Made by a program: the position numbers and the translations under genes. Of a DNA stretch of 64,000 bases, positions 18,150 to 63,849 are shown one piece after another; position 1 is the stretch's first letter; each line of letters opens with the position of its first letter. The stretch lies in the NCBI GenBank assembly GCA_037833965.1, contig AP031353.1, positions 30,010,501 to 30,074,500 of the forward strand, written 5' to 3'. Under the pieces are notes generated by a model that was not told where the DNA came from, made no database searches, and was given only the letters and a program-made list of their open reading frames with translations. The stretch is from Marchantia polymorpha subsp. ruderalis. Its lineage: Eukaryota; Streptophyta; Marchantiopsida; Marchantiales; Marchantiaceae.

Positions 18150-21100
18150 CTACACCATTTCCAAAACTTTGATGTTTCCCATGGAGTTTGCAGCCACCAG
18201 CGTTTGAGATTTTCCTCTCCAGCACACACTTGAAACAAACTGCCCACCATCGTCTTCAGTTTCTTGCCCAGTAATTGGATCCGCACATCCAAACTTGTGA
18301 GAAGCCATGGGCATGGGCAGTGACTTATGATATGCAAATACCTGCACGACAAATAGGCTCATAATGTAAGAACGACCTCTGGAATCGCGACTAAGAAACT
18401 GAAGTAAGCATTTGACCAGCGACCAGATACCCAAAACCCCAGAGATAACAAGTGGAGAAAACTGCGTAAATAGAGTCAGACAAACACTAACCGCATTCTT
18501 CTCAGAGCCACATGCGATGTAGCCGTCGGCTACTGAAAGTCCAACAAAATTCTGCACGTACGGCATCGAATGTCAGAAAAATCAATTAACAACCGTTGTT
18601 CACATTATCGTACGGCTCAGAGAAGCAAGGGATCGAATCTCCCACATTTCACACGCGACGACAACAAGAGTTATTGCCCACGTTGCTACCTTTTCATTCG
18701 TGTGTCCAGTGTATGTCAGCGAGCAGCTTGAATCGACTCCATGACAACTGCTAGCCTTTTGGAGGTCCCACAATTTCAGTGTGTTATCTGTTGAAGCGGA
18801 AACCAGAGTACCAGAATCGACAAATTTGACATAGCTGACGGCCTTGCTGTGACTTGCCAACACACAAAGTGGGGCTTTTGCATTCCTCAGGTCGTAGCAG
18901 TAAATCTTGTAGTCGGCGGATCCAAACACGAGGAGATGAGAAGCATCGGGTGGAAACTGAACACAGCAAACATTCGCTCTAGTTTTGATAGTAGCAATGC
19001 TCGAATCCTGTCATGAACAATATTAAAGACTCAGTTTTCCACAATGAACAAAAAAATTTAAACTTTCACATATTCTTAGACGCTGCTGCTTGCAAAGCAC
19101 AGCTCGAGAGCCCATTACGCCAAAACCTCATCTTCAGTAAGAGCGCAACTAGGAGCGCTTAAGCAAGACCGCATTATCTACAAACCTCTGGACGAGAAAA
19201 TCAAGGAAGCCTACCGATTCCAAAAGCATAATGCTTACCGTGTTGATGCTCCAAAGCTTGACACAGCAATCATCACTGCCACTAGCGAGTTTAGTAGGGT
19301 CAGCTCGAGAGAAATCGACGGACCAAGCTCGCTTCTCATGTTCTTGGTACTCCATCAGTGGCTTACTTGCATTGACGTCCCAAAGCTGAAGTCAAATACC
19401 AAAAGCACAAGTCAGTTATGTCCATTCAAGGGGATTCACTAAGCAGGGAACGCAAGTTAGACGTGTATTGACTGGCGAAGATACGCTAAGGTTCTGAAAG
19501 GCTGTACTTCTTCGGGCACCACTGGTGAGTAGACATAAAGTGTTCGCAGTGGACATAATGTCTCACGCTATCAACACAGAGAGGGTTGACTGGTTTTCGA
19601 CACTTCCGTTAGCACTGAATGTGACAACATGTTTGACGTGACAAAGTCGGATAGCTTAAGAGCGTTGCTTCACGATATCACATTGCTGCAACTGCGAAGT
19701 TCCTGGAAGTCTGGGAGAACGAATTTGCCTATTTGCCCGAAAAAGCTTGCTCTACTTCAATCATCCTTGTGGCGGATTTACACACCTGTACAACGCCTTC
19801 ATAATCACTGGAGGCGATATGGCTCTTAATGTAGCTATTCCAACAAATGCTGCTGAGTTTTGATCGGCTTGTCATCTCCACCCTCGGGTAATGAATATCT
19901 ACGTTCTCATTCAGCAAGGAATCGCACTCGAACACCTTTATCCGCTTGCAAACACCCGCAGTTGCAAAATACTCCTCGTCACGGTCAAAACTAAGTGAAC
20001 ATACCATATTGGCAGTATTCAAAAGGTCTCCGTGTCTTAAAGTGGCTTTAACTTCAAATCTACTGTAGCGAGCATACTTGCACAAACTATCAAAGAAGCA
20101 TCCAAGCCAGTCATCTGAATTCCCTCTTACTGGAACAGATTCTTGGTCAGTTACTTTAAGGTTGCACCCTAAATCTCCAGTGCTTGATGAACCACCTGTG
20201 TGACTTCCGTTGGGTGATGATACTCCACCGGAGTCGAGACTTGGTGGCCCGACTTTCCATCTCATTGAAAAGTACACCCTCTCGAGTTGGCTAAAGTTGC
20301 TCATCACCTTAGCACTTTTCGAGGAGATATCACCACTTCGCTTAGAAGGCACATCTAGCGACCTACCACCTTCTCCTTTAAACTCAAGCGTAGCATTCCC
20401 GTCATCATCCCGCGACCGCTTTCCCAATATAGGCGGCTTCCTCTCCTCCTGGTCACCTAAACCTATTGCCCAGCGTCCTTTTGAATACAAAGAATTTCTT
20501 GTGTATGCATCCTCTTTGATTCCTGCGATTCGAAACCTATCACCTGACTCAGGAATCCTCAATGGAATACCTCGTTGCTTCAGAACTGATCTCCTCCGCT
20601 CAACTTCCTCTATGTCAGATGTGAGTCTGGACACATCTAAACTTAATTTACACACTGCTTCCTGTTTTTGATGCTGCATGCGTAGCAAAAAGTCCAACAG
20701 AAGATCCGATTCCGCGGCTTTCTCTTCCACGCTGACAGCAGCTTGCCTCTCAGCTAATGCTTCACCGGCTTCACTCAGCAGTTCACACTGAAGAACTTCC
20801 CTGTAAGTTGTCAGCACCACGAAACTAATAAGCTTGTAACCTACAAGTACAAATCTTTAAGCAGAACACTAAATAGCATAGTTCCAGAGCGAGCTTCTAC
20901 CACCATTCTCTTCATGTACAGGGCAATTCTTACCTCGCTTTGGGCCTTGAGCTTGGCTCGGGGTGAAGCAGCCAGAGGCAAAACGCGGCCTCTTTGGGGC
21001 ATTCCGAAAGTAGACGAGGTGGAAGGATGCGATGTCGGAGGTCGGACATAACCCTTATTCGCTCCGCTTCAGAACCGAAGGTACAAAACAGCTGCTAGGA

Positions 21101-24000: not shown

Positions 24001-26551
24001 CGTGATAAAATGATTATATTTTGAGCTTGCATATCAACTTCTTTGATATATTTCAAAATCTTGATGAGTGTATTCTCAAGAATGTTATGATTGTACATAG
24101 CTTGATCAAATTTTAATTATTATAATAATATTTTTTTAAATATGTTTATGATGCAAGAAAGTGATCCAAAAATGAAATTTTGATTATTTTATAATTTTCC
24201 AATTTTTAGCATCAAATCTATAATTATTCGATTATTATTATTATTATATTTTAAATTCGACTTTAAAAAATATAACATCTTCATATCAATATTTTAAGAA
24301 CTTTGCTGCATAGATGTATAGAAAGAGTAAATTTAAGATGTAATTTTATAATGTAACCAAATAATTGTGAGTGTACACTCAACAATTTTTTTAAAAATTA
24401 CATCAATTACAATATGGTTAACAATCTAAGCTACAAATAAATTAGCTAAACTTATCTCCTTATCAAAGAGCAATCTTTGTACATATAATTGAGATTGTAT
24501 ACTTAACTTTCAAGTTTTTTTACAGATTTATTCAAAATATTTTTGTATTATGTTTATAAGAATAACTAGACTGAACTAAACGATTACTGTTGCATTTTAA
24601 TACATAGTTGGTGATTTATCACAATAAAAAGTGAATTGACTCAAATCAATTATTTGATACTTTCTTTGATGGAAATTTTTGCAACCTTTGGTTGGCTATG
24701 TATAAAAATGAAAAAACAATCTTATGTTTCTTTTTATTTCAAATCATCATCTTGGTTTGTTTTCAGTTCCACAATTGCATCACATTAAGTCTCTTCATAC
24801 ATGTGTATGACAACATGAAGCACAACATGACATGAGCAATGTTGTTGGACATTCTAGTTCAATCCAAGATACCCTAAGAACTCAAAATGGCATCCACAAT
24901 GTATACAGATCTTCAGACTAAAATACATCAGACAATATGCTTCCCTTCTGTTTACGCCCCTTCACACGCGTTGAAGATCACCGTAAAATGGAGTGTGTAA
25001 ATCAAGATTTGTGTCAAGATGGAGCAAGCAGCAAGTAAATGATTTAGGATGTACATCCATATCGTATTTGAGTAACTCAGTGTCAGCAATAATTACAAAA
25101 TGCATAAGAGCTAGCAAAAGAGAAAGCGTAATGCATATCAATGAACATAGTTTTTTTGTAACATGTTTTATGACTTTGTGTTAATCATTTTTTATATTTT
25201 GCAAATATCTGCGTATTGTACTGATTTTAGTAGATGAGTTTTTGCAAAAAAATTTCACACAAAAAAATATTTGAAAGTAGAACTTTGTGCGTCATTCTTA
25301 TGATTGATGACAAATAAAATCTCATTCTTTGAACTTTCTTGTAATCAAAGCCATTGAATTTCACTACAAATTTTTTGAATCACAAAACATTTATCGTCAA
25401 AATCTAATTCAATTGCAACAATTATAATCTAAGTACTATTAATATGGTGTAAAATATTATCGCTAATTTGACATCGCGGTGTGATATATGACAAGGATTT
25501 GTAAACACAAGATTTTGATTTGTTGTAACCCAAATTGTTGCATACATAGTTACAACAATTCATTATGCAAGATATGTTTTCTTGGTATGTTTTTCATGTT
25601 CTGAACTTCACAACAAAAATAAAATATTTGCATTATAAGCTATAAACTTGTAAAAAATTGTTGTGTTGTGTCTAAATAAAAGCAAATTTTGACATGATTG
25701 AGACTTAGGTTTGAGTTCATGGAAGTTTTATACTATCCATATGGTTGAATCTACATTATCCGTTCACTATGTCGGCTCTCTATCAACAAAAGTTTGAGTA
25801 ATGTTTTAGAATCAAAGCTTTACAAAGTTAGGTTGATCATTCAGTGAGTTCAAAGATAATTTAGCTTGGTTAAAGCTAAAGCATAAATATGCAATTGATG
25901 AAAATAAACAAGATAAGGGAGTAGAACAAAGATGATTTCAAGTATATCATATTTGAATGTAAATTTGAGTAATGGTTTTGATTTATTGTTAGGTAAAAAT
26001 TGCATGATAGCAAATAACTAAAGCATTAAAGAGTTAAGATGATTACAACAAAAACATTTAAGATTCAAAGAAGTCTTTAGCTCCACATAAGAAAATTTTA
26101 GCAATTATGAATTTTTGTATCATACATTGTTTTTTAAGTTCATTCAATTTTTTGTGCATATGCAAATTAAGACAATGTTCAACCAACAAATAGTTTAATA
26201 GTTTTTTATTTCAAAATTTTGTGAGATACATCTATTTTGTTGCATTATCTTGTTCCAATCTTTTATATTTGTCTATACTTTCTTATCTAATGCTTATTTA
26301 CAATCTTAAACAAAAACCTAACACATCAATAAATTTGATAGTACAGATTGACCTATGTATGTAAAAGCTCTAGATTTTTATGGATTTATGAAAATATAGT
26401 GTTTAAAATTTGAATTTTGATAAACAAAAACAACATGTATTTTTAAAAATTTATAAAAGTAAGTATGTAAAAAGCTAATTGTGATATTTCAGCTTCAAAT
26501 GAAATAACAATATCAAGTGAAATTTATTTAATACATAGGCTGTAAAAAAAT

Positions 26552-26571
26552 TATATATATATATATATATT
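26552..26571. repeat. (TA)n microsatellite
   Basis: A pure TA dinucleotide run. Confidence 0.9.
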
Positions 26572-27178
26572 CTACGATTCACAAATTTGTATCAAAAATA
26601 AATATAAAATTGTATTTATGTATATTGTTCACAATGATGTTAAATAAGGATAATTTTTTTACTAAAAGTGGCAAATCTTAGCTTTTCAATAAGTCTACAA
26701 CAATGTGTTCTCATTGATCAATTAAGAAGAAAACAAACTTGCAGATTGAGATAGATTTGATTTTAAAAAAATTTGATGTAAATATTGTTATAGTTTAATA
26801 TTTGGAGCATTCAACATAAAAAATAGTAAAGATGATTGTGGATTTTCTGAAAAATATAAAGACTTCAACATCAAAATTGAACATTGTAATAAAAATCCAG
26901 TTATTTCATAAATGGTTGTATTTTTCAAGATGAATCTTCATTGAAAGTCATACTTTGAGGTTGTTAATTATTTGTTTCAAATTTCATGCATAAAATAATT
27001 TTTATATTTTATTCATACTATTGATGATTTTTTAAGTGAGACTTATGAGTATTTTCATTTTCAAATCTAAAACACTATATGTATTTTTGAAGGAAATAAA
27101 TGTATAATTTTAGTTTAAAAAATGAACAAGAAAACGTTTCTATCGGAAATGTCTAATTTTTTTAGAGATATGGTATTT

Positions 27179-27218
27179 TTTAGAGATATGGTTTCAGAGC
27201 ATATACCATATCTCTAAA
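27179..27218. repeat. Perfect inverted repeat (14-bp arms) with an extra direct copy
   Basis: TTTAGAGATATGGT (27179-27192) pairs perfectly with ACCATATCTCTAAA (27205-27218) around a 12-base loop. A further direct copy of the left arm lies just before it (27161-27174). Confidence 0.8.
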
Positions 27219-30200
27219 ACAATTTGAAATTGATGTGAAAAAATTTTAAAAATGTAAAGATGTTTGAATGAAATTTAAATTAAAAAATTAAAAGATATTG
27301 AGTTTTTAGATTAATCCGACAAAATGAATGGAAAGATTAAATAATTTGTTTTCATTGCATGTATGTCTATTTTATATTAAAATTGTATATTCAATATTTT
27401 TTTAAGTTTGAAATTACATATTTAACTTTGATTTGTACATTATATTCTATAGATAAATAAGTGATTTTTTGGGAAATAATTTGATATTGCAAATCAAATA
27501 TCAAATAGAGCAACAAAAGTTGGGCATAAAACCAGGACAAAAGTATGATTTCAAAAACGAGAGTTGATTCAAACGCCTGTTGTTTGAATTGTTGGTAATA
27601 CTTGTTTTTTGGAAATATTTTGCTATTTTTTTAGCAAAAATACAATATTGATGATCAATTGTAATAAATAAATGACTTTCTTTATTATATGGGCAATGAT
27701 AAATAAACTTATTAATGATCAAATGTGAATTCATTTAGATTTGAAGTTTGATTCTTTTTAATATGAATTAATTTTGATATAAATTTACATATTTTAATGA
27801 TTCTCAAATAATTATAAAATTTATATTTAACTAATTAAGAGTATGAAAAATTTATGCGTATCGCTATATAAAATAAAATATTATTTTTGTTGTGTTCAGG
27901 TGATGAATTTAATTCTTTAAAGCCAAACTTTTTTGAGTTGGATAAGACCAAAATTAGAAGGTAAATACATCATTTATTTTATTTTATTTTCATGTGATTT
28001 TGTTTATATTATAAATTTAACATGTGCATACATCAATGTACGGTTTCAATATGCAAACTACATCAATGAGAATTCATTATCTAATAACATTGATCATTGA
28101 ATTTGATTCTTCAAGAATTTATAGATGATAGTACAGTTTTTCATTTGTTATAAATGAAAAAAAAAAATCTGTTAGATTTTATCAATAATTGTGAAATTTT
28201 ATTTATTTTCATAGGTTAAAGAATAAAAATAACATAATGAAGAAATATTTTTTAAGACATAGCGGAAAACTGTGTGAAAACCATAATCATAAGAAACCAC
28301 AAATTAAATTGAGTAAAATGCTATTGCCTATTACAAAAATGGTTAGTTATAGAACTTTATGTCTAAATAATCTAAATGATGATAAAAAATGATGCATTGT
28401 ATAGTTAACAAGATGAATGTACCAAGACAAAGCACAAATTATTTATTTATGGAAATGTCATAATTTGTTTGCTTTCTAAATTATAAAATATTTTTTTGTG
28501 AAAATATGGATCACATCATCTCCGTCATTTATTCTATAATTTTATCTTATTGTTACTTATAGCTTTTTGTAATCAAGACTACAATAAAATCATTTTGTAA
28601 AAAAATATATTTTACAAACATTATTTATTAAAAATGATTTATTTGGATACACATTGTTAACTTTGAAACCAAAGTTTATGATTTAGATTTTGCAGTTTGC
28701 AACATCATTTCAAGGAACGAACTTCGAAAACAAAACAGCCAAAACATGTTTGAATAAAAATATGTTTTGAGTTAAAAAATTGATTAAAAATTTTACATTT
28801 GTTCCTCTTGTTAAAACTTTAAAATCACACAATTTTTATTTATTTTTTGTTTGAATTAATTTTTTTCAACACATCACCTTGATTAAACTAAGTATCAAAC
28901 TTCAAGCACTCAAGATTTTTATTTAAGTTTGCATCTTTGATATAATGATACATAATATTGATGTGTTGCACTATGATTTTTATCGATTGATATACCTTTT
29001 TGTTACATATTGTTATTCATTATTGACTATCATAATGATGATAAATTTAATAAAATTTTCTTTTTCTTTTATCTTTATTATTAAAAAAACTCACTCAAAT
29101 TGTTATTATGATGTTGTAATTTATTCATTTTTTGTTGTTGATTGAAATGAACATTTTTTAAATAGCATTTTAACTAGCGACCTCATCATTAAATGTAAAC
29201 ATGCATTAAGATCTTTTTTTTTCACAAATTGCTTATAACAGCCTTAATATAGCCTATTAGAGATTTGACATTGTACAATATGTCATCAAACAACATGTCA
29301 TAAATTTTTACACTTTTGAGATGATTTGAAACTTAGTTTGGAGCTTTCAATGCATCAATTTTTGTTTGACATGTACATGGTCATCTTATTCATGAATGAA
29401 GCTTTATCAGATCTTGTGGATAAGAAAACAACATAAGTGTAGTCCGAGCTTTGTCATAAAATATTGATGATGAATTTTCCTGCTTGTTGTATTGATTGGA
29501 AATGGAGCTACAAAATATTTAACATGTTCAGTGTGTTTTAAACTTTATATTGTTAAATATGTTAAGCACACGTTGAAAACTTTCAAGTTGTATATGAAAA
29601 CATCACAAAAATTAGTTTTAAATCTCAACTATTAGTAATCTTTTAGAATAGATTATGACTACATTGATTTTCATATTAGCATCAAATCCACAAGATTGAT
29701 CAATAATTTATTATGGGCAAGATCTTTTACGGTAAATTGTTAAATTACTCAAAGTTTTTATCAGTTATTATACTTGAAATTCAATTTGCTTCTTGATATG
29801 ATATATATGTTTTATATGATGATTTATTTTTTGCATAGATTTTCAATTTATGCCAAAAATCTATCATCCTTGTAGTTTGATTTATAAATTTGATTTTTAT
29901 GGCAAACTATATGAACTACATTAAAAAATATTATGCATATTGACACTTTTTTGTTGACTTTTAGAGTGTTTAAAAATTGATTCTTCCCAAAATTTTACAT
30001 ATGAATACTAAACATTTTTATAAGTTTTTACATTATAAATAGTTTTTTCAAGTATATGGAACTACGTCTTGTCGAAACTTCCAATTGCGAGGATCAAGTT
30101 GTTTCCAACTAACAACCAATCATTCAATGTACATTGAAATCGTATATTACGCATATTGACATTATAAAATACTTAAAAGTTTTTATTTACTTGTAGTTTT

Positions 30201-30408
30201 TTGTGCTTATTGCATTTAATAAATATAATCTCTTTGATAATATGTGATCAAATACTACTTTTTTTATTTTTTTGCCACATGTTGAATCTTAGAAGCCTCC
30301 CACGTCATTATTTTAAAGCAATGTTCATCTTGATTGTTTATTTGGATACGAGCATATTTACAATACATAGATGTAAATTTTGTTTGCCAATTCGATGATC
30401 ATGTTTTT

Positions 30409-30602
30409 GTTGATTGTAAAAATGAGCTCAAAGATATTGAAGTAGTGATTTTAATTCTTACTATGAGATATATCCTTGAACTTGGAAGATTATTGCTTTG
30501 TGATTGATGATTGTAATAATGAGCTCAAAACTTTTTATGTATGAATTATTATGCTTATCATGAAACATAATCTTCAATTTTGAATATTGCAGCTTGATTA
30601 AT
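30409..30602. repeat. Degenerate tandem repeat, period 97 bp, two units
   Basis: GTTGATTGTAAAAATGAGCTC (starting at 30409) and GATGATTGTAATAATGAGCTC (starting at 30506) open two diverged units that share further stretches such as CATGAAACATAATCTT versus TATGAGATATATCCTT. Confidence 0.5.
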
Positions 30603-31237
30603 GGTATTCATAAATACCAAATTTGTTGTTTGATGACTAATCTCAATATGTTGGTTGATGTTACTAATGGCTCGATAAGCTTGATGTTTGCCAAATGAAC
30701 TAATCATTTTGCTACAACATGATATCTTACACAACTACTATAATTTATCTTATCATTATTGATGAGTTTGGTATAGTGCTTTTTGACTATTGTTTGAAAA
30801 AAATACTTCATTGTTAGCCGTGATATTTAACATTTTTGAAAAAATTGAAAACTACGATGGTGAAAATTTTACAATTTTTGCAAAAACAAGTTACATCATA
30901 TATTAAGTTACTTTCTATTAATTTTTATTGTAATTGAGAAATAAAATATATTCTTTTTTCACCAATGTGAAATGAGCTATTTGCTATATTGTGTTTTGAC
31001 TATTGTCAGATGAGAGTTTTTTTTTTGGCAAATTGACACATTTGAAATAAATTTACTATTATTATAAAGAGTAATCTAACAATAACAATACATTACTTAG
31101 TCAGTGTATTAATTCAATGTTTTTTTTTTATTTTTCAACCTAGCTTCATCTAAATCAAACATGTAAAATACACATCTTAAAATTAGATATAGGAAAAAAA
31201 TTATTTTCAAATAACAATTGATAATTTAATATGTTGA

Positions 31238-31242
31238 TGTAT
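31238..31242. repeat. Target-site duplication (left), element copy 1
   Basis: TGTAT lies immediately before the element's TGTGGTAACCC end and is repeated exactly at 36074-36078. Confidence 0.9.
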
Positions 31243-31439
31243 TGTGGTAACCCACTTTTTGTTTTTGTGCGGAATTTAAAACTTTTTTGGAAAACAGTAC
31301 CGCAACAACAATGTAAATAGTAATCGGTGCATTTAAATAGCGTGAAAGTGGATAAATCGCGGGTCTTTTATGATCTCGTAGAATCCAAGAGTTGGGCGCA
31401 ATGTCCGGAAAAGGCGTCCCGGCCCGAACGATCGATTCT

Positions 31440-32190
31440 GAAGGGAATCTCCTTCGGCGCAAGGCGCATAATACGCCTTCGGCGCTAGACGCCTTCGGCG
31501 CTAGGGAAATCCCTCACAACTTATTCAATTCATAACGCCTTGACTTGGTTAGGGTCTCGTTGGAAAGATTTTGACGCGCTCGTTCTAACGAGCCCAAGAA
31601 CGCTTGAAACGGATGAGGAATCAAGGTTTTACAATTGTCGGAAGATACTGAGAGGGAGCACCTTCGGCGGAAGGGCTAGGTCGACGGACGAGCCGCCTTC
31701 AACTCAGCCGCCTTCGGCCCTAGGTCAACACCTTCGGGGGTGAACTCCTTCGTACGAGCGCCTTCGGCGCCAGCGCATCAAGATTAGGTTAACGCCTTCC
31801 GGGCAAGCAACTCCGTACGGTCCGCCTTCGGCATAACGGAACTCCTACGGCAAAAGCGCCTTCGGGAGGACAAGAGGGATCGACAGAAAGGAGAAGATCA
31901 GTTGACTGCGGTCAACGCCTTCAACACAGCTGCCCTCGGCGCTGCGCCCACGGCGATGCACCTACATCGACGGACGCCTTCAAGAAGTTCGACTTCGGCG
32001 TTGGGAGTCAACGCCTTCGGCGGTAGAAGTTTGCCTTCGGCGCAGCGAGTCAACGCCTTCGGCGGAGAGAGTTTGCCTTCGGTGGAACGCCTTCGGCGAT
32101 GCGGGATAGAACAAAGATGCGAGTCGGCCAAAGGCGAAAGCCTCCGTCGCCGCGCCTTCGGTGATACGCCTTCGGCGCTGCGCAAACAAG
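31440..32190. repeat. CCTTCGG palindrome array in the leader of element copy 1
   Basis: At least fifteen copies of CCTTCGG occur in about 750 bp, many as the perfect palindrome CGCCTTCGGCG (stem CGCC/GGCG, loop TTC). Spacing is irregular. The same motif recurs in the coding part of the element and in copy 2. Confidence 0.9.
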
Positions 32191-32729
32191 GCCACGGCGA
32201 AGTACGATGGGAGAAATCAAATTCAATTTTTGAGCGTGTGAGTCCGCGCAACGGCGGAGTGTGAAGTCGAGCGTGCGAGAGGAGGGCCGTTACGCCTCCA
32301 AGCCGGCGCAGCCATCAAGTGGGTCGACCTCCACGCCAAGTGTCGACAATGAAATCTTGTGAGCCGAAGGCGGGCGACTCATTCTTGAACTTGCTATTTC
32401 GATTTCTCGTGAGAGCTGCGCGCGCACACATTTTGGCAGAGAGAAATCAGAGGAGAAGGCGACGCGCAGCGACTTGCAAGGCAGAGAGAGAATTGAGTGC
32501 GCGACCGCGGGAATTGAGTGAGCGCGGAGCTCGCAGAGGGATCGCATCCGCGTGCAAGGAGCTTGGGCATAACAGTGGAGAGTTTGCGCAGTGCAATTTC
32601 AAGAACGCGATGTCAAAAGCAACACAGCTGCGGATGATTCCGCTGAAGCTTCCGCACATTGGGCTGCGCACTTTCCAGCACGAGCTGACGGCGGTGAAGC
32701 TCGATTTTCTCTTGTAGGGGTGGAATTAC

Positions 32730-33395
32730 GTGTGCCAGTACATGATGCGGGAGTGGCAGAAGGAGAAAGACCAACCTACGCGTGGGTTTCGATCGCACGT
32801 AGAGCGATGGGCCATCGAGGACTGGAAACAGTTGTTGGGAAGATGTGCGGGAGAGGACGAACATCTCCTATTCGATAGCGAGAGCATCAAGGTCACGAAG
32901 GAGGAGGAGATTTCCTTCGCGGCCCTTTTCAAGAGCAGCAAGTCCAGCAAGAACGGGTACAAGATCCGTGACTACAAGGATCGCTACCGCAGAAATGTCG
33001 CGGTAGCACTTCTCCAACTTTTGAAGCCGCACATGACCACCTACATCACTTCTTGGCAGGTGTCATTCGTGGAGCTGGCGTTTGTCGGAGCTCCAATTCA
33101 TAAGGCTCGCATCTTATGGAAGATAACGCGGCAGCATGCGTTTGAGGAGAAGGGGGGATCGATCAATCACCTCTTCACCTTCTTGATCAATCTCTACCGA
33201 TCGATGGGTTGCCTAACCGCGACCGAGCGAGTTCAGTTCCCATTGCTGTCACGCAGCAATCCCGGACGGAATGTGAAGGACGTCGAGGTTGACACCGATG
33301 AGGAAGAGACTCCGGCCTCCACGCCACCAGCCCAACCGAGAGTGGAAGGAGAATCACTCGCAGCGCGAGTGCCGCGGAAGCGGAGATGGAAGTAG
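32730..33395 (+). other. Conserved-domain reading frame of element copy 1
   Basis: This open stretch encodes a basic domain of about 200 residues. Landmarks are HLLFDSESIKVTKEEEISF, FKSSKSSKNGYK, a run of hydrophobic helices around VALLQLLKPHMTTYITSWQ, GAPIHKARILWKITRQHAFE and RVQFPLLSRSNPGR, then an acidic and Pro-rich tail. I recall similar proteins in large numbers from Marchantia gene sets, but assign no biochemical function. A gag-like role is conceivable, but no zinc knuckle is seen. Confidence 0.6.
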
Positions 33396-33954
33396 CGCGA
33401 AGACAGGGCGTGCCGCCGGAGAGAAGGAGTCACCATCGTCAGAGGAGGATGGGAACACCCGGACTGCAGAGGGGTCAGCGGATCTCTCTGCGCCGAAGGC
33501 ACGGATGTCTTCGGCGGAAGCAAGACGGCATTCGGGCCAGGAGAGACGACACGCGGCACCGAAGGATAGGTATTCCGCGCGAATATCGTTCGCGGACTCG
33601 CCTTCGGGGCTGGGGCCTTCAGCTCAAGCGCTTTCGGCGCAGTCGCTTTCTACGCAGCGGAGGAAGGGGAAGAAGCCGGCGGAAAATGCACCTTCGGCCC
33701 AAGAGATTGCGAGTAGGGAGCCTTCGGGGCACGCGCCTTCGGCGGTAGTACCGCCGGAAGGTGCGCCTTCGGCCCAAGGGACCTCGGGCGAGCCGCCTTC
33801 AGCTCAACTGCCTTCGGCGAAAGTGCCGCCGACAGATGCGCCTTCGGCAAAGGACCTATCAAAGGAGCAAGACGACAAGCAGAAGGAGGAGGCACGTGTG
33901 CCTTCCGCACAATCGCCTTCGGCACAAGCACCTTCAGCGATGCGGAGTTGGTAG
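33289..33954 (+). other. Pro/Ser/Ala-rich repeat region of element copy 1
   Basis: Low-complexity coding-like sequence in which CCTTCGGC is read as repeated APSAQ/PSG units. It would form a disordered linker between the conserved domain and the coiled coil. Confidence 0.5.
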
Positions 33955-34172
33955 TAACAGATCGGACGGGCGGTGCGAACTCGTCAAAACTAGGATCCCG
34001 CACCGCCTTAGACATTTTGGCCGGGAGCAGTGCGGCGGCAGCAGCAGCAGACGCAGACGCTACGCAGCCCAACTCCCGGGAATCGCCAGGGAATTCAGTG
34101 GCGACAGAAATCCTCAATTCGGAGGATGAGGGAGAAGGAGAATCGGGCTCGGACGAATAGGAGGAGCAATCG

Positions 34173-35031
34173 GTGGCAGGCACGCCGACGGCGGCACTAT
34201 GCGAGCAGGTGGTACCTCTGCTAAGGTATCTCGATCGCAAGGTGACGAAGTACGCAGACCCCCGTCAACCTGGGTCCTACGTCGAATTAGTGTGCAGACG
34301 GACTCGCACTAAAGTCCACACTAGCAAGTTGTTGGCACGCTTGGATGGAGACATTAAGGATCTGCAATTGAAGAACGAGCACTTGCGTGATCACATTGCT
34401 CTTTCGCGGAAGCTGCAGAAGGTCGTCGACCAGGTGCGCGATGAGAAGTTTGAGGAGGCGAAGAAGGAGTTTGCCAAGGAGAAAGCGAAGCTCGTGGATG
34501 AGCTGGATTTTGAGCAGACTCAGAATCAAATTTTGTTAGAGTAGCTCGTGCGGCAGACACGGTTGCTAGAGCAGTGTCAGCTCGCACGCCGGGCGGATGA
34601 AGAGTTAATCCGCAAACTGCAATCGGAATGCGGCGAATTGAGAGCGCAGCGTGCGGACGAAGAGTTGTAGTTGGTAGTGGTTGAAAATGATCGCCGGCGA
34701 GAGTCAGATTGCACGAAGGAAGAGTTGGTGAAGCGAGTCAACCATTGTCTCAGAGTTTACATCCTCTGGGAAGTGGCTGCGCAGAAAAAAACTCACATTG
34801 CGCGAGTTAGAGCTTCGTGCGGCGGGTTTGATGTCGGGTGACAGTCGGAGCCGGCGGCGAGTGGCTAAGAAGCTGGATGCGTATCTGTCAAGGTCACGGG
34901 ATGCCATGGCAGACCTCGAGACGGAGGTGAGTGCGGTGATGCGGCGGCTGGGCTTGCGCAGTCGAGCTAAAGACTGGTCGGGTAGGGAGTTAGTGTGCGG
35001 CAGTCCGTCGCGCAGAAGGCACAATACATGA
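34173..35031 (+). other. Coiled-coil region of element copy 1
   Basis: Heptad-like charged sequence includes LLARLDGDIKDLQLKNEHLR, KLQKVVDQVRDEKFEEAKKE and, further on, LRELELRAAGLMSGDSRSRR followed by RRVAKKLDAYLSRSRDAM. It is shared with copy 2 (49746-50625). Long coiled coils of this type accompany the conserved domain in related Marchantia proteins as I recall them. Confidence 0.55.
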
Positions 35032-35252
35032 TCTGCAGGGTGCTGCAGCGTAGTGTAGTGTAGTGTAGTGTTAGTTAGGACTTAGAAGGTATAAAGTAGT
35101 TCAAGGCGTCTTGCCTTGGGATTTTTCCAGTTTCGGAAGTGCAGATCAGGAACTCATTTTCTCTGCGTGTTTGTGTTCTTAGTTCTGTCACCGCGCAAGA
35201 GGAGCTACAGCTTGACGAAGATACCGCATTTTGTAGCTGAAGGCCTTCGGCC

Positions 35253-35388
35253 GAATGTTCAGAGCCAGTGCACTGGTTAGATACTTGAGCAGTTTGGATC
35301 TACACCTGCGGGTGATTGTTGAATGCTCAGAGCTAATAACTGGTTAGAGACTTGAACAGTTCGTCCTTACACCTTCGGGTGATTGTTC
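35253..35388. repeat. Tandem repeat, 2 x 68 bp, in the 3' part of element copy 1
   Basis: The unit opening GAATGTTCAGAGCC and ending GGGTGATTGTT (35253-35320) is repeated at 35321-35388 with moderate divergence. Confidence 0.7.
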
Positions 35389-36073
35389 CTGTTTGTACTC
35401 CTTCGCGATGTTTCCACTGAATGCCAAAGTGAAGTTTTGTTACTTCGAGTAAGCCTTGGTTGTAATTCAGGTTACACTGCAGAAGGCGCCCTTGGGGCAA
35501 ACCTCTATAGTATTTCGGGGAATGACTAGTGCTTGAGAATTCAAACTCGTCAATAGACTGTTATGGTGTGCCACTAGATCTTTTCTCAGTTGAGTTTCTC
35601 AGTTTGGACCTGTATTCTCTGCGCGTTTTGTGGGTTAAGTGTGTTGTTCACCGCGTGTGAGTGACTTTGGTTTGACGAAGATACCGCATCCGAAGTAGGA
35701 AGTCCAACCTGGGTGCCCTGCGCTAGCAGAAACTAGTGGAAGTATCGTAAAAGCCGAGTTGGGAGTCACTACCTGCAAAGCCTTTGAATGTACTCGTGAG
35801 AAACTTTCCCCCTGAAATCTTAAGTAGAGGTCCTAATCGACCTCTGAGTTGTGCTTTTTCAGTTTCAGGTGTGTGTTGAGTGAACTATGCTGCACTGTGC
35901 GTCCTCTGAGTTGAGCACTTGCAGTATTTCTGGGAGTGACAGTCGCCTTAGAATTCAAACTCTTCAATAGTCTGTTAAACGTGACACTTTGTACTATGTG
36001 TGTTGCCTCTGTCCTTGTGGGTTCGACCTTTTTGCTGCTATACTGCAGTTTTAGCCTTTGGTGGGTTATTACA

Positions 36074-36078
36074 TGTAT
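36074..36078. repeat. Target-site duplication (right), element copy 1
   Basis: TGTAT directly follows the terminal ...TTATTACA and matches 31238-31242 exactly. Confidence 0.9.
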
Positions 36079-38060
36079 CTTATATATTTTTGAAATAATA
36101 TTTAAATATGATGTCAGAAAAAAAGATTGGTAAAAATAAATCATATGAATGGTGTTGATAATTATATTTTTTTCCTTATGTTAAATCTTGTTGTTTTTTA
36201 AATTATATTTTTTTTATCGACTTCTAGGTTTATTGGCAAAAACTTCACATACATTTGAATATAATATATGCTAATATTTTGCTTGAATTGTTTGAAATGG
36301 ACTAATGAATGATGTTGTATTTAAAAAAAAAAACATATAATTGATACAAAGAATGAATTTTTTAGTTTAATGGTTACACGTGTTGTTTTGATGTCTTTTT
36401 GTCATGCTTTTGCTTTCAAACATACATTTGATGAGTTCCTAATTATTGCATTTTATGTTTTGCTTTATCTAATTTTCATGTTATCGCTATATTGCATGAA
36501 GATCTTTTTTTCATCACATCTTGATATTTAGAATTTAGTTTGTTTACTTCTATCGATACATGATTCTCAAAAGTTAGTAAAGCTTTCAAATGTTATGTAA
36601 TTTCATGCAAATAATATTTCTTTTTACATTTAGAACAATTACATTCCATAAAGATTCAACATTTATCAATCTTCATCAATCAATTATTTTGAAATCCAAC
36701 ATTTGAAAGAAAATTTATAAGATATTCAATAATTTAATATTTTGAATAATCTGGATAGTTTTATATTTTGGAAAAATCTAATTATAACCTATGTTTCAAA
36801 CAACGTTTCACATTAAAGCGTAATTTCACAAACTATGCATACTCTACATTAAGAAAAAACTTTAATTGCATGTGCAAATTTTCAAAATACATCAAACAAA
36901 TATTACCAAAAATGTTTTATGTCATTGATACACTACTTGCAAATGCAATGATATAACTCTTGGTTTATATACTTGCATTACATCCTACAACTAGATTATA
37001 TGAGCATTTTTTGATCATAAATACCAAATGATATTATTATTTTATCTTGATACTCATGCTTTGAGTTTCAAGATACACAAACCACGTACTTTCAATGTAA
37101 ATCTTTATATCTCAACATCCATATATGCACAAAATAATTTAAACTTTAGTTCACATTATTCACATATATATAACACTTTGATTATTACAAAAATTGGGAT
37201 TAACATTATTATTTAAAAATTATTGAAAAAAATCGTAGTAATAGCTTTTATATGATCTTTCAAGTTTATTAATGTGTTGTCTTTTTTACATTGTAATGTA
37301 AAGTGCCTTTATGCCATTTTGCATATATTAAAATAAATTAAATTCAGAAATCCGTGCAGTATGACCCCAAAAAACTATATTAATATATTACTATTACTAT
37401 TTTCATAATATACATGCATATTTTTTTAAGCATAGAAAATAAAAACTATTAAAAAAATTACTGTTATCATTATACGGTTTGTTTTACAATATTTTTCAAT
37501 AACATTTTGTTTCAAAACCTTACTAATATCTAATGCAAAACTTGTCTTAACCTCATTGAATTAGCGAATATTTGCAACAAATAATGTAAATTTGTTGGAA
37601 ATATACAAATACATTATTATGCACAAATGTGTAATTTTGAGATGTTGATTCAAGTGAATTAGGATAAATTAGCACCAGATTTCAATACAAGTATTATAAA
37701 ATATAGAAGCTTGATAACTATCGTGATGGTAATTTTAATAAATTAAATCAAGATGTTATATAAATTTAGATCTAAAAATTAATTCTCCTTGTTGTTGACA
37801 TGGATGTATATTATTCTAACACAACATATAAAATATAGAAGCCTGATAATTATTGTGATGTTAATTTTAATATTTTTAGTTATTATTAAATTTATATAAT
37901 TTTATTAAATAAATTTATATCTTAAACGTATGTTTCTTTGTTGTTGACATGCATGTATATTATTTTAACATCGTGCTAAATATTTTCAAAAAGTCATTTT
38001 GATATCAATATATAAGAAATATCGACAAATTTGATCATGTAATGATTTCATCATGAGCTA
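36079..38060. other. AT-rich gene-free block (right part)
   Basis: Strongly A+T DNA with no credible gene. It continues the block broken by the element insertion and contains the degenerate repeat at 37695-37973. Confidence 0.7.
37695..37973. repeat. Degenerate tandem duplication (132-bp offset)
   Basis: Units starting at 37695 and 37827 share TATAAAATATAGAAGC.TGATAA near their starts and TTGTTGTTGACATG.ATGTAT near their ends. The second unit is longer. Confidence 0.65.
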
Positions 38061-46661: not shown

Positions 46662-46836
46662 AAAATTACTGGGCTTACTACACTACATTTTAAGGCATTT
46701 TCAAAGTTCTGTACACTTCTGAGACCACTAACGAGCAAGCATAGGTTGACGAAAGGAGGTGCTGTTCCAGGGCAAGTGGATCAGCTCACATTCAGTAAGA
46801 ATGGCGAGCGTCTCATTGCGCACAACCGGCTCGACG
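46662..46836 (+). pseudogene. hAT transposase fragment left of the inserted element
   Basis: The frame open from 46662 to the insertion point reads ...SKNGERLIAHNRLDD, and across the insertion site it would continue as KRARLFSKLV. That resembles the hAT stretch just before the IVDNKQP...VVENFFF block found on the right side (hAT proteins commonly have ...LARMI...PF..VE.. here). A one-base frame change shortly after the junction separates this frame from the main transposase frame. No BED zinc finger is visible upstream. Confidence 0.5.
46832..46836. repeat. Target-site duplication (left), element copy 2
   Basis: CGACG precedes TGTGGTAACCC and is repeated at 50923-50927. Confidence 0.9.
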
Positions 46837-47219
46837 TGTGGTAACCCACTTTTTGTTTTTGTGCGGAATTCAAAACATTTTGGGAAAACAGTACCGCAGC
46901 AGCAGTGTAAATAGTAATCGGTGCATTTAAATAGAGTGAAAATGGATGATCGCGGGTCTCGTAGAATCATCGAGAGTCATCGAGTTGGGCGCAATGTCCG
47001 GAACAGGCGCCTGGCCCGAACGACTGAAGGGAACCCCCTTCGGCCCTAGCCACCTTTGACGCTAGGGAAATCCCTCAGAACTTATTCAATTCATAACACC
47101 TTGACTTGGTTAGGGTCTCGTTGGAAAGAGCTCGACGCGCTCGTTCTAACAATCCCAAGAACGCTTAAAACGGATGAGACATCAAGGAGTTACAATTGTT
47201 GGAAGATACTGAGAGGGAG

Positions 47220-47690
47220 CGCCTTCGGCGGAAGGGCTAGGTCGACGGACGAGCCGCCTTCGGCCCTAGGTCAACGCCTTCGGGGGTGAACTCCTTCGTA
47301 CGAGCGCCTTCGGCGCCAGCGCATCAAGATTAGGTCAACGCCTTCGGGGCAAGCAACTCCGTACGGTCCGCCTTCGGCTGAACGCCTTCGGCGGTACGGA
47401 CATGTACGCCTTCGGCGGAACGGAACTCTTGCGGAGAAAGTGCCTTCGGAGGGACAAGAGGGATCGATAGAAATGACAAGACGAGTTGACTGCGGTCAAC
47501 GCCTTCGGCGATGCACCTACGTCGACGGACATCTTCAAGGATACACCTTCGGCGTTGGGAGTCAACACCTTCGGCGGTAGAGGTACGCCTTCGGCGCTGC
47601 GAGTCAACGCCTTCGGCGGTGCGGGATAGAACAGAGATGCGAGTCGGCCAGAGGCGAAAACCTCCGTCGCCGCGCCCTCGGCGCTGCGCG
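47220..47690. repeat. CCTTCGG palindrome array in the leader of element copy 2
   Basis: More than ten CCTTCGG copies occur within 470 bp, many as CGCCTTCGGCG, matching the leader array of copy 1. Confidence 0.88.
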
Positions 47691-48199
47691 AACAAGGCCA
47701 CGGCGAAGTACGATGGTAGAAATCGAATTCAATTTTTGAGCGTGTGAGTCCGTGCAACGGCGGAGCGTGAAGCCAAGCGTGCGAGAGGAGTGCCGTTACG
47801 CCTCCAAGCCGGCGCAGCCATCAAGTGGGTCGACCCCCACGCCAAGTGTCGAAGATGAAATCTTGTGAGCCGAAGGCAGACGACTCATTCTTGAAATTGC
47901 ATTTTCGATTTCTCGCGAGAGCTACGCGCGCACGCAAGTTGGCAGAGAGAAATCAGAGGAGAAGGCGACGCGCAGCGACTTGCAAGGCAGAGAGAGAATT
48001 GAGTGCGCGACCGCGGGAATTGAGTGAGTGCGGAGCTCGCAGAGGGATCGCATCCGCGTGCAAGGAGCTTGGGCATAGCAGTGGAGAGTTTGCGCAGTGC
48101 AATTTCAAGAACGCGATGTCGAAAGCAACACAACTGCGGATGATTCCGCTGAAGCTTCCGCACATTGGGCTGCGCGCTTTCTAACACAAGCTGACGGCG

Positions 48200-48890
48200 G
48201 TGAAGCTCGATTTCCTCCTGTGGGGGTGGAATTACGTGTGCCAGGACATGGTGCGCGAGTGGCAGAAGGAGAGAGACCAACCTACGCGCGGATTACGACT
48301 ACACGTAGAGCGATGGGTCATCGCGGACTGGGAACAAGTGTTGGGGAGATGTCCGGGAGAGGACGGGTATCTCCTCTTTGATAGCGAGAGCATCAAGGTC
48401 ACGAAGGAGGAGGAGATCTCCTTCGCAGCCCTTTTCAAGAGCAGCAAGTCCAGCAAGAACGGGTACAAGACCAGAGACTACAAGGATCGCTACCGCAGAA
48501 ATGTCGCGGTAGCACTTCTCCAATTCTTGCAGCCGCACATGACCACCTACATCACTTCTTGGCAGATGGCATTCGTGGAGCTGACGTTGATCGGAGCTCC
48601 AATCCATTGGGCTCGCATCCTATAGAAGATAACGCGACAGCATGCGTTTGAGGAGAAGGGGGATCGATCAATCGCCTCTCCCCCTTCTTAATCAATTTCT
48701 ATCGGTATATGGGTTGTCTAACCGCGACCGAACGAGTTCAATTTCCATTGCTGTCACGCAGCAATCCCGGGCGGTACGAGAAGAACGTCGAGGTTGACAC
48801 CGACGAGGAAGAGACTCCTGCCTTCACGCCACCAGCCCAACTGAGAGCTGAAGGAAAATCACTCGCAGCGCGAGTGCCGCGGAAGCGGTG
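48200..48890 (+). other. Conserved-domain region of element copy 2
   Basis: It carries the same landmarks as copy 1 (LLFDSESIKVTKEEEISF, FKSSKSSKNGYKTRDYKDRY, HMTTYITSWQ, VQFPLLSRSNPGR). Identity to copy 1 is high. Interrupted. Confidence 0.55.
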
Positions 48891-49745
48891 ATGGAAAGGC
48901 GACGTAGAGAAGGGCCAACATCGCGATTCGAATGCTCTCAAACGGAAGCGGCCACTTCACGAGCTCTGCAGTCGGCCGAAGTAGAAAGCATGCAGGCTCG
49001 TGTTGCCTGCAAGTAGCGCGGAGACAGGGCGTGCTTCAGGAGAGAAGGACTCGCCATCCTCGGAGGAGGATAGGAGCGCGCGGACGGTAGAGAGGTTAGC
49101 GGACCTCCCTACGCCGAAGGCACGGACGTCTTCGGCGGAAGCAAGATGGCCTTCGGACCAGGAGAGACGACACGCGGGACCGACGAACGTGCCGGCGGCG
49201 GATAGATGTTCCGCGCAAGTACCATTCGCGGACTCGCCTTCGGCGCAGCGGAGGAAGCGAAAGGAGCCGGCGGAAAATGCGCCTTCGGCTCAAGGGCCTT
49301 CGGCCTAAGAGATTGTGAGTAGGGAGCCTTTGGGGCAAGCGCCTTCGGCGAAAGAATCGCCGGAAGATGCACCTTCGGCTCAAGGGCCTTCGGCCCAAAG
49401 GACTTCGGGCGAGTCGCCTTCGACGGTAGACGCCCCCGGCGATACGCCTTCGGCGGAGCGCCGCCGGCAGAAGCGCCTTCAGCGAAAGACCCATCAGAGG
49501 AGCAAGACGACAAGGAGAAGAAGGAGGCACGTGTGCCTTCGGCTCAAGCGCCTTCGGCGCTGCGGCGTTGGTAGTGACAGATCGGTCGGGCAGTGCGAAC
49601 TTGTCGAAGACAGGATCCCCCACCGCCTTAAACATTTTGGCAGGGAGCTGTGCGGCGGCAACAGCAGTAGAAGCAGACGCTGCGCAGCCCAACTCCCGGG
49701 AATCGCCAGGGAATTCAGTGGCGACCGAAATCCTCAATTAAGAGG

Positions 49746-50625
49746 ATGATGGAGAAGGAGAATCGGGCTCGGACGAAGAGGAGGAGCAATAAGTGGCAGG
49801 CAGGCACGCCGACGGCGGCACTATGCAAGCAGGTGGTACTTGTGTTGAGGTATCTCGATTGCAAGGTGACGAAGTACGCAGACCTCCGCCACCCTGAGTC
49901 CTACGTCGAATTAGTGCGAAGGCGGACTCGCACTAAAGTCCGAACTAGCAAGTTGTTGGCACGCTTGGATGGGGACATCCAGGATCTGCGATTGAAGAAC
50001 GAGGCACTACGTGGCCACATTGCTCTTTCGCGGAAGCTGCAGAAGGTCGTCGACCAGACGCGCGATGAGAGGTTTGAGGAGGCGAAGAAGGAGTTTGCCA
50101 AGGAGAAAGCGAAGCTCGCGGATGAGCTGGATTCTTAGCAGACTCAGAATTTTGTCAGAGGAGCTCGTGTGGCAGACACGGTTGCTAGAACAGTGTCAGC
50201 TCGCACGCCAGGCGGATGAAGACTTAATCCGCAAACTGCAATCGGAGTGCGGCGAATTGAGAGCGCAACGTGCGGAGGCAGAGTTGCTATTGGTGGTGGT
50301 TGAAGACGATCGCCGGCGGGAGGCAGATCGCACGAAGGAAGAGTTGGTGAAGCGAGTCAACCACTGCCTCAGAGATTACACCCTATGGGAAGTGGCTGCG
50401 AAGGAGAAACTTACCTTGCGCGAGTTAGAGCTTCGTGCGGCGGGATTGATGTCAGGTGACAGTTGGAGCCGCCGGCGAGTGGCGAAGAAGTTAGATGCGT
50501 ATCTGTCAAGGTCGCTGGACGCCATGGCAAACCTTGAGGCGGAGGTGATTGTGGTGTTGCGGCGGCTGGGATTGCGCAGTCGAGCTGAAGCCGGAGTTGG
50601 GAGTGACGACCTGCAGATCCGCTGA
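49746..50625 (+). other. Coiled-coil region of element copy 2
   Basis: Charged heptad-like sequence with LLARLDGDIQDLRLKNEALR and LRELELRAAGLMSGDSWSRR, homologous to 34173-35031 of copy 1. Confidence 0.55.
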
Positions 50626-50922
50626 ATGTACTCGTGAGAGACTTTCCCCCTGAAATCTTAAGTAGAGATCTCAACCGACCTCAGAGTTGTGTTTCTATAG
50701 TTTCAGGTGTGTGTTGAGTGAACTACGCTGCACTATGCGTCCTCCGAGTGACCTCCGAGTTGAGCACTTGCAGTATTTCTGGGAGTGACAGTCGGCTGAG
50801 AATTCAAACTCTTCAATAGTCCGTTAAACGTGACACTTTGTACTCTGTGTGTTGCCTCTGTCCTTGTGGGTTCGACCTTTTTGCTACTATACTGCAGTTT
50901 TAGCCTTTGGTGGGTTATTACA

Positions 50923-50927
50923 CGACG
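50923..50927. repeat. Target-site duplication (right), element copy 2
   Basis: CGACG directly follows the terminal ATTACA and matches 46832-46836. Confidence 0.9.
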
Positions 50928-52491
50928 ACAAACGGGCACGGCTGTTCTCGAAGCTGGTCAATTGATCGTGGACAACAAGCAGCCTATCGTAGTCGTCGAG
51001 AACTTCTTCTTCAAAGAATTCATGCATGAGTTGAATCCTTTCTTTAATGTACCGAGCCGTAGGTATATCGGACGAGGCGTGGACGATGCATACGAAGAAG
51101 CGCAAGCGAAGATTGCGTTGGTGTTGGAGTCAATTTCAGGAGATGTCGCACTCACTTGCGATGGTTGGTCTTCTCGAATCATGAAAGGCTACTTTGTTGT
51201 GACGCTGCACTGGGTCAACAAAAATTGGAATTTACGTTCTACTGTCAACGAGTTCATTTACTTTCCACCACCGCATAATCAATGAACAACGTCGGAGCTG
51301 CTGCTTTCTCTCATGAAAGATCTAAACCTCGCGACTCGCGTCAGAGCCGTCACAACAGATAGTGGTGGCGAGATGCCGCCGGCGATGCGCCATGTTGCTG
51401 CGAAGTTGAATGAAGAGTTTGATGCCAAGCTAGAGTCGGATTGGCACGTTCAATGTGTTTGTCACATCATCAACATAGCTGTAAAGGATTGTGAAACAAT
51501 CGTGAAGCCTGTTGTTGAGAAGATTCGATCTCTTTTGAAGATGATTCGCGTCTCGGCGGTTTTGCGTGTGGCGTTCCGAGAGATCCAGGTGCTGCTGGGC
51601 AGGTGGAACATCGTTGATGTACCGGGCCTTGACGTTGAGACTTGGTGGAACTCTATGTTTGAAATGGTTGATAACTGCTTTCTTGTCAAAGATGTCTTTG
51701 AGTCAATGTGCAACAAAGAAGAGTTTACTGCAGCGTTGGACGGTTTGTAGTTGAGTCAAACGGATTGGCGAGAAATCAAATCAGTCGTGAACTTCCTTCG
51801 TCCAGCCAGCGAATTGACAACTACTGCCAGCGGTAGTAGCTATGTCACCTTGTCTATTGAGCCTCTTATTTACGAGTCTCTCAAGACGCATTGCCTATCG
51901 ACGATATCCGGCACACTGGAATCTGGATTCACTGTACCAGCTGCGAAGCGAGCTGCAGTAGCGATGCTTTCAAAGCTGGAAAAGTACAAGGAGAACATGA
52001 ACAACCCTATCTGCTTGCTCGCTTCAGGTCTTGACCCATCTGTGCCTGTTCCCGATGAAGACATTCAGGAGCTCAAGTTCCGTATTCGCCAAATTCTTAT
52101 CGTCAGGTATGGATATCAGCAGCAGCAGAATGTTGAGATTCCTCAGCGATTGGATCTTCTTGCCGCTGCCAAGTTGGCGCGTGCAGGATCTTGTGCTGAA
52201 CGTGGTCAGATCGACGAGGTGGATGACTTCTTTGAGTTGACGAAGAGAACTGATACTTCCTGCGATAATGTACTGGAATGGTGGTCCGCTTCCAGCAAAC
52301 GCTTCCCTTTGTTATCGCGACTTGCTTGTGATACATTTATGGTGATGGGCTCCTCAGTCCCTTCAGAGTCCGCCTTCTCTGACAGCGGCTCGTTCGTCAC
52401 TCCTCGACGCTCGAGTCTGTCCGATGAGAATATTTCCAAGATGATGAAGCTTCGATCGTGGAATCGACTTTTGAAAGTTTTGAATAAATGA
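50928..52491 (+). pseudogene. hAT superfamily transposase, decayed (main part)
   Basis: A single frame runs from the insertion junction to TGA at 52489-52491, interrupted only by in-frame stops at 51283-51285 (TGA) and 51748-51750 (TAG), so it decayed fairly recently. Landmarks in order: VVENFFFKEFMHELNPFFNV, ALTCDGW (first catalytic Asp), VTTDSGGEM (second Asp), HVQCVCHIINIAVKD (the conserved C..H block), TWWNSMFEM, and a C-terminal dimerisation domain with VLEWWSASSKRFPLLSRLA, SSVPSESAFSDSG and RRSSLSDENISKMMKLRSWN. The 5' portion is separated by the inserted element. A dead non-autonomous relic is the best reading. Copies elsewhere in the genome could still be active. Confidence 0.92.
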
Positions 52492-60000: not shown

Positions 60001-60141
60001 GACGGAATGAACTCGAGTAAGCATTCTCGATCATTTGATGGAAGTAGTAGTCAAGATGGACATGGAACACGGACTAAGAAACCGAAGTCCTTAGATAGAA
60101 ATCGACACTTGCCCACAGGTCTTCCAACATCAATAGAATGA
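57046..60141 (+). CDS. ALMT: Aluminium-activated malate transporter (ALMT) family anion channel, six exons
   Basis: ALMTs are anion channels of the plasma or vacuolar membrane that pass malate and inorganic anions. Exons: 57046-57265, 57466-57606, 57886-58158, 58353-58489, 58620-58763 and 59227-60141. All phases close, giving 609 residues. The N-terminal half has about six membrane segments: about 34-48 (VGLALTLSSLLVLVQ), 58-72 (AIWAVITVVVVFE), 82-100, 108-126, 141-156 (IVIFMLTFCMVLIIGY) and 169-187 (LLTILIGALICLLVSLIVI). The family string PHWAGADLH follows at about 188-196. Family landmarks GATLSRGFNRGAGT, FARWEPPHGRFGLGHPWKEYLKVG and RHCAYTVLALHGCLRSEIQ are intact. The long last exon (residues 306-609) encodes the cytosolic C-terminal helical domain and a Ser-rich acidic tail ending in basic residues, on the long side for the family. 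Which membrane and which anion cannot be told from sequence. Confidence 0.96.
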
Positions 60142-63273: not shown

Positions 63274-63498
63274 GACCTTATTGATTTTAACCTGTTTGAA
63301 TTATTTATCAAGATTGAGAATAAACATGTTTGTTAGTATAAGCACCAAGACCTTATTGACTTTAACTTGTTTGAGTTATTTATCAAGATTGAGAATAAAC
63401 ATTTTTGTTAGTATAAGCGTCAAGACCTTATTGACTTTAACTTGTTTGAGCTATTTATCAAGATTGAGAAAAAATATATTTGTTAGTATTAGCGCCAA
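63274..63498 (+). repeat. Tandem repeat, 3 x 75 bp
   Basis: Exactly three units begin GACCTTATTGA at 63274, 63349 and 63424 and differ at few positions. 75 is a multiple of three, so one frame stays open through all units and reads a 25-residue repeat (TLLTLTCLSYLSRLRINIFV then SISAK), continuing to a stop at 63677-63679. Coding is doubtful because the region is AT-rich and no family is recognised. Confidence 0.9.
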
Positions 63499-63849
63499 GA
63501 ATTTCTATCTGGAACACACTCTTGGACTTTGGTTTGAAAGAGATCAATTTCAAAATATATATTATGCAATTGCGTCCCTTAGAAAACACATGACATTATG
63601 GCTAAGACAAACACTTCTACCAAAGCCCAATATTGAGTGCCCAAGTCCAAACTCATCCATGCTCATGGGTTTTTTGTGACATTATGTTTCATGATTGAAC
63701 ACGTATGATCAATTGTTTCTTTGTGGATTTGAATGGGCATAGTTTCCAAACTAGTATGAAATCCATGTGTTACCATCTTTAGTTAGTTAAAACTAAAATA
63801 GAGGTTACTTAAAATTGAATAGAGTAGATGATAGTGGAATATTTAGAGT

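Follow-up and report, generated by a model that had tools for sequence, protein, structure and literature searches.

The 64,000-nucleotide window analyzed here (positions 30,010,501 to 30,074,500 of contig AP031353.1 from the land plant Marchantia polymorpha subsp. ruderalis) contains 2 copies, A and B, of an element which, judging from their ends and target duplications, are probably independent solo long terminal repeats (LTRs) of one long-LTR retrotransposon family. Both copies carry a coding region, now broken, and a comparison between them provides suggestive evidence for selection on an extra gene located inside the LTR. Our tentative proposal, to which we give somewhat less than even chances, is that an LTR-internal accessory gene was under selection throughout the active life of the family, and that its protein combined a domain of no known family, a Ser/Pro/Ala-rich linker built up as a short palindrome spread (which also multiplied upstream of the frame), and a coiled coil. 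Solo LTRs are a known kind of element; what would be new is where the gene sits.

Borders and class of the two insertions

The 2 copies, their ends and their target duplications are located as follows.

31243–36073, + strand: copy A, putative solo LTR (4831 bp, TG...CA ends; delimited by exact ends and similarity limits)
46837–50922, + strand: copy B, putative solo LTR (4086 bp; frames with a hAT dimerization domain follow just downstream)
31238–31242: left target duplication of A, TGTAT
36074–36078: right target duplication of A, TGTAT
46832–46836: left target duplication of B, CGACG
50923–50927: right target duplication of B, CGACG
31243–31255, + strand: left end of A, terminal inversion of 13 bp that agrees with the right end at 11 of 13 positions
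36061–36073, + strand: right end of A, terminal inversion of 13 bp

Both copies start with TGTGGTAACCCAC and finish with GTGGGTTATTACA, and each of the 2 terminal 13-mers has exactly 2 perfect matches in the window, one in A and one in B. When up to 2 mismatches are allowed, the 13-mers have 5 and 6 matches in the window, compared with means of 0.79 and 1.34 in 100 shuffles, none of which reached 5 or 6; the inexact end matches (1 or 2 mismatches) outside the copies lie at 25521, 1210, and 1626. Self-BLAST of the window sets the same limits, with similarity starting exactly at 31243/46837 and stopping exactly at 36073/50922. Exact matching and the self-BLAST limits thus confirm the claim of a first-pass annotation of this DNA that 2 copies share exact ends. 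The different perfect 5-bp duplications that it reported for A and B were also recovered, the chance of a perfect 5-bp match, estimated from the local base composition, being approximately 0.004 for A and 0.001 for B. That the insertions are independent and their borders fixed, as the annotation held, is supported by the separate duplication of each copy and by the exact similarity limits, and its description of the element as GC-rich agrees with a GC content of 54% in A and 56% in B versus 39% in the rest of the window.

In a global alignment of A and B, 3470 of the 3873 ungapped columns are identical (89.6%), and the substitutions comprise 257 transitions and 146 transversions; the BLAST pieces, gaps included, display 83% to 89% identity. 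The observed/expected ratio of CpG is 1.11 in A and 1.15 in B, showing no depletion (0.84 in the rest of the window), and CpG-type transitions nevertheless make up 74 of the 403 differences.

The TG...CA ends, the 5-bp duplications, which are perfect and surround a single unit in 2 of 2 copies, the imperfect 13-bp inversion and the lack of terminal direct repeats together argue for the solo-LTR class. Self-BLAST of each copy found no direct repeat joining the ends within A or within B; hence, neither is a complete LTR element. Immediately 3′ of each copy stands its duplication, followed by target-like DNA, and inspection by eye revealed no primer-binding-site-like start 3′ of either copy. In the accessible part of a survey of 13,566 plant LTR retrotransposons, a set selected for duplications and TG/CA ends, 93.4% have 5-bp duplications (PMC6317226). 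Under the solo-LTR reading, a complete element, with 2 LTRs flanking a gag- and pol-containing interior, would have been integrated by its own integrase, producing the TG...CA ends and the 5-bp duplication, and recombination between the 2 LTRs would subsequently have deleted the interior together with one LTR, leaving a single LTR between intact duplications. The "unclear class" of the first-pass annotation was accordingly too cautious with respect to the ends, duplications and missing terminal direct repeats, all of which match a solo LTR, and "non-autonomous family" is not the best description of what would be the remnant of a longer element. The annotation's statement that the copies lack a recognized mobility enzyme agrees with the Pfam scans, which detected none in the frames of A and B that they covered.

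The terminal inversion could also be viewed as the signature of a non-autonomous DNA transposon with terminal inverted repeats, which would create 5-bp duplications through an unseen transposase acting in trans and would carry a captured gene or one of its own. Such a transposon would accommodate both the inversion, with 11 of its 13 positions matching, and the coding unit, which fills about half of the element. However, the inversion stops at 13 bp without any extension, the TG start and CA finish are those of LTRs, and 5-bp duplications combined with TG...CA are not known from any plant superfamily: plant DNA transposon superfamilies generate duplications of 2, 3, 8, or 8 to 11 bp, and Transib, with a 5-bp duplication, starts with CAC. 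We regard this explanation as very unlikely.

A further alternative takes A and B together as a single retrotransposon, in which they would be the 5′ and 3′ LTRs and the 10.8 kb between them the interior, in line with their identical orientation, approximately 90% identity, and spacing of 10,763 bp. Yet each copy is bordered by its own perfect and different duplication, the outer flanks do not correspond (TGTAT to the left of A versus CGACG to the right of B), and there is no polymerase motif between the copies. The differing duplications rule out an LTR pair of a single element. A six-frame scan of the window for [YF]xDD-type polymerase motifs, a narrow test, yielded 2 minus-strand matches, at 51477 and 62391, which lie outside the interval between A and B; within the copies, no polymerase was seen in the Pfam-A scans or in the motif scan.

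Several observations weigh against the assignment of A and B to solo LTRs. No primer-binding site, polypurine tract, polyprotein, or complete element was seen. At 4 to 5 kb, the copies are at the upper end of LTR lengths, the longest LTRs in the survey, as far as its text is available, being about 5 kb (PMC6317226), and the non-chromovirus clades of moss and clubmoss are described there as rather short (PMC6317226). Neither copy contains AATAAA.

The coding region and its divergence between the copies

The coding region of A is read as a series of parts, listed here with the segment of A that has no equivalent in B and with the counterpart of the coding region in B.

31475–32176, + strand: part of A preceding the reading frame; of the 21 GCCTTCGG sites in A, 13 lie here
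32610–33393, + strand: domain frame of A (no known family), from an ATG and with 1 internal TAG; silent excess in this frame only
33397–33945, + strand: Ser/Pro/Ala-rich linker frame of A, without significant silent excess (p = 0.165)
33945–34785, + strand: acidic stretch and coiled-coil frame of A, recognized by eye, with stops inside (p = 0.39)
34790–35031, + strand: C-terminal tail frame of A, ending at the TGA at 35029–35031; silent excess at 34790–34965
34973–35752, + strand: 780-bp segment of A missing from B, the largest difference between the copies; it holds the TATA[AT]A at 35090, a 67-bp tandem repeat (35253–35387), and a stretch (35509–35560) that recurs at 35923–35974
48116–50600 (end approximate), + strand: broken coding region of B, counterpart of that of A

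The evidence for a functional past of this region comes from the distribution of silent differences. The differences between A and B were redistributed 2000 times within each region, with base and CpG class kept, in a total of 15 tests. In the coding frame of the domain, 34 silent and 36 replacement differences were counted versus 22.1 and 50.4 expected (p = 0.0015), and stop-related differences numbered 6 versus 3.5 expected; the other 2 frames gave p = 0.50 and 0.9985. The tail (34790–34965) also displays an excess, with 12 silent and 7 replacement differences versus 5.2 and 12.9 expected (reached in 0 of 2000 redistributions) and p values of 0.83 and 0.99 in the other 2 frames. A control region at the 5′ side displayed no silent excess in any of the 3 frames (p = 0.77, 0.46, and 0.40). 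The results for the domain and the tail survive multiplication by 15. In a separate count, the ratio of nonsynonymous to synonymous rates (dN/dS) of the domain is 0.30 versus 0.71 and 1.38 in the other frames.

Divergence between dead copies should be free of frame bias; part of the divergence between A and B therefore probably arose while the gene was working, in an active family, as far as 2 sequences allow this to be read. If the units are LTRs, then the gene was carried in the LTR. The proposed arrangement would be an extra gene inside the LTR, upstream of a candidate TATA box at 35090 and kept by selection during the activity of the family. The motif at that position is the only TATA[AT]A of either copy and begins 59 bases after the tail stop; as a TATA box, it would assign the gene to U3 and leave the last kilobase for R and U5.

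Both copies of the coding region are broken by stops, frameshifts, and deletions. The domain frame in B starts at 48116 and contains 2 stops and 1 frameshift. At 33389, just before the linker, A lacks a 116-bp segment that is present in B, and this gap accounts for the frame change of A at this position; in B, the domain and the linker follow each other in one frame, with stops, across this segment. A frame change near 33945, between the linker and the acidic stretch, occurs in the same manner in A and B and could possibly represent a shared frameshift, a splice, or 2 genes. Thus, the "conserved domain" and the "coiled coil" of the first-pass annotation stand as features of the reading frames, with the restrictions that they are broken in both copies and that the coiled coil was recognized by eye.

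Alternatively, the frames of the solo LTRs may have little meaning, the coding signal being due to chance or to a captured fragment of a host gene, useless to the retrotransposon, an explanation which overlaps with the solo-LTR reading. The disruption of both copies at several places, the linker and coiled-coil part without silent excess, and the restriction of the comparison to 2 sequences are all compatible with it. Against it, the silent excess falls in the expected frame of the domain and of the tail and not in their other frames or in the 5′ control, and a frame-biased divergence is not what a dead fragment would produce. We consider this explanation rather unlikely.

The proposal of a selected gene has other points against it. 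As listed above, neither the linker in its own frame nor the acidic and coiled-coil part displays a significant silent excess, and the latter contains 9 stop-related differences versus 3.4 expected. At 34545–34900, dN/dS is lower in a non-coding frame (0.38) than in the coding frame (0.68), in a stretch that spans a frameshift of A, which qualifies the value. The boundaries of the test regions, most of all those of the tail, were chosen with the frames already known, and only 2 sequences were compared. Finally, TATA[AT]A is confined to A, and since about one such site is expected by chance (hand estimate), it is weak evidence.

The palindrome, searches for relatives and genomic surroundings

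The palindrome CGCCTTCGGCG has multiplied inside both copies, at 31475–33935 in A and 47221–49560 in B. Occurrences of GCCTTCGGC on the + strand number 16 in A and 17 in B, with 2 more in each on the other strand, compared with 0.12 (A) and 0.18 (B) expected under a second-order Markov model (200 runs, maximum 2); there are 0 occurrences in the rest of the window. The motif is found both 5′ of the frame and within the linker, the translation of which is rich in Pro, Ser, and Ala. A and B differ in length by 10 to 200 bp at 12 places, 9 of which include CCTTC or lie within 12 bases of it; the same is true of 20% to 28% of random stretches of A (11 to 38 bases plus the same flanks). The copy number of the palindrome thus changes within the family. 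On its own, the 11-letter motif forms a 4-bp hairpin (−3.7 kcal/mol), and 15 of 200 shuffles fold equally well; RNA folding of a 101-base motif-rich stretch was no better than that of shuffles (z = 1.29).

A Pfam-A scan of 5 frames of the copies at E values up to 1 revealed no family, and at E values up to 10 only DUF6708 was listed (E = 0.081, 13.1 bits, below the cut-off of 27). PF20167, considered as a possible likeness of the domain, was listed at neither threshold, and a search with this family matched none of 14 control genomes nor the one genome examined, a result that carries no information. No match was found in PDB at E values up to 1, with 2 chance-level ones at 1.6 and 1.7, and an AlphaFold model of the domain built from a two-row alignment was unusable (mean predicted local distance difference test score, pLDDT, of 34.9). 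In a viral contig collection, 6 and 70 stretches matched the peptide patterns, none of them encoding a relative, and neither element end was matched. A single genome-contig match proved to consist of nothing but a 19-mer, in a bacterial contig rich in AT; by a hand estimate, chance would give about as much in that collection. Among the papers listed on solo or non-autonomous LTR elements of Marchantia and other bryophytes, open reading frames (ORFs) in LTRs, extra ORFs of plant gypsy elements, the motif, and MMTV, none names the element in its title or the opening of its abstract; this search covered literature other than repeat libraries and most subscription journals and hence leaves room for an earlier description of the family.

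Copy A sits in AT-rich DNA (GC content of 21% to 28% at 24 to 31 kb and 22% to 24% at 36 to 38 kb), and its AT-rich flanks, 24001–31237 and 36079–38000, are devoid of frames of at least 120 codons. Copy B lies just upstream of a region (50929–52491) in which frames resemble a decayed hAT transposase gene with a C-terminal PF05699. This hAT dimerization domain (E = 1.4e-15) was detected in the frame at 51751–52488, downstream of B; the frames between B and PF05699 are hAT-like by eye only and received no Pfam name (Dynein_light, E = 0.026, below the cut-off). When B is removed, no long frame runs across its insertion site; hence, the target of B, if it was a hAT gene, is decayed. Elsewhere in the window, frames of an aluminium-activated malate transporter occupy 57780–60138 (PF11744, E = 3.7e-36 and 4.4e-22) and a WD40 protein is encoded at 18603–19010 on the minus strand; 3 of the 7 neighboring frames scanned had no match to any Pfam family. 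These neighbors are indicative of a land plant. A tandem array at 63274–63500 consists of 3 copies of a 75-bp unit with 92% matches.

Comparison with known systems

Large retrotransposon derivatives (LARDs) consist of 2 LTRs around a non-coding interior. A and B resemble LARD-type elements in being large and devoid of gag-pol and differ from them in having no terminal direct repeats. A and B are likewise comparable to plant elements with very long LTRs, such as the non-chromovirus Ty3/gypsy elements of the Ogre/Tat/Athila type, as described in the available sections of the plant survey: their solo LTRs have TG...CA ends and short perfect duplications, their LTRs reach about 5 kb, and their extra ORFs mostly lack known domains (PMC6317226). 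According to the same sections, only 21.4% of the extra ORFs in the surveyed plant LTR retrotransposons resemble a known domain, and the extra-ORF domains named for Ogre/Tat/Athila, PF10536, PF04195, and PF03078, are present in 16% to 57% of elements (PMC6317226). Neither these 3 domains nor PF20167 were listed for the frames of A and B by the Pfam-A scans at E values up to 1 and 10, an absence that does not exclude Ogre/Tat/Athila membership because only 16% to 57% of elements carry them.

Extra genes in plant retrotransposons are already known, and the literature, in the portions available, places them only relative to the polyprotein region; an LTR is an uncommon place for a gene. If our proposal is correct, each complete element would contain 2 copies of the LTR-internal gene and each solo LTR would keep one as a possible coding unit; such solo LTRs may then appear in repeat annotations under host genes or in a repeat class of unknown nature. 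By its layout, the gene would be a plant counterpart of the retroviral sag gene, which is located in U3 of mouse mammary tumour virus (MMTV). In MMTV, as in our reading of A and B, a protein gene lies inside an exceptionally long LTR, and the accessible text of the source states that the 3′ LTR encodes Sag (PMC3026287). Unlike A and B, MMTV is a retrovirus of vertebrates, its LTR measures about 1.3 kb, and the likeness is one of layout alone, the proteins not having been compared.

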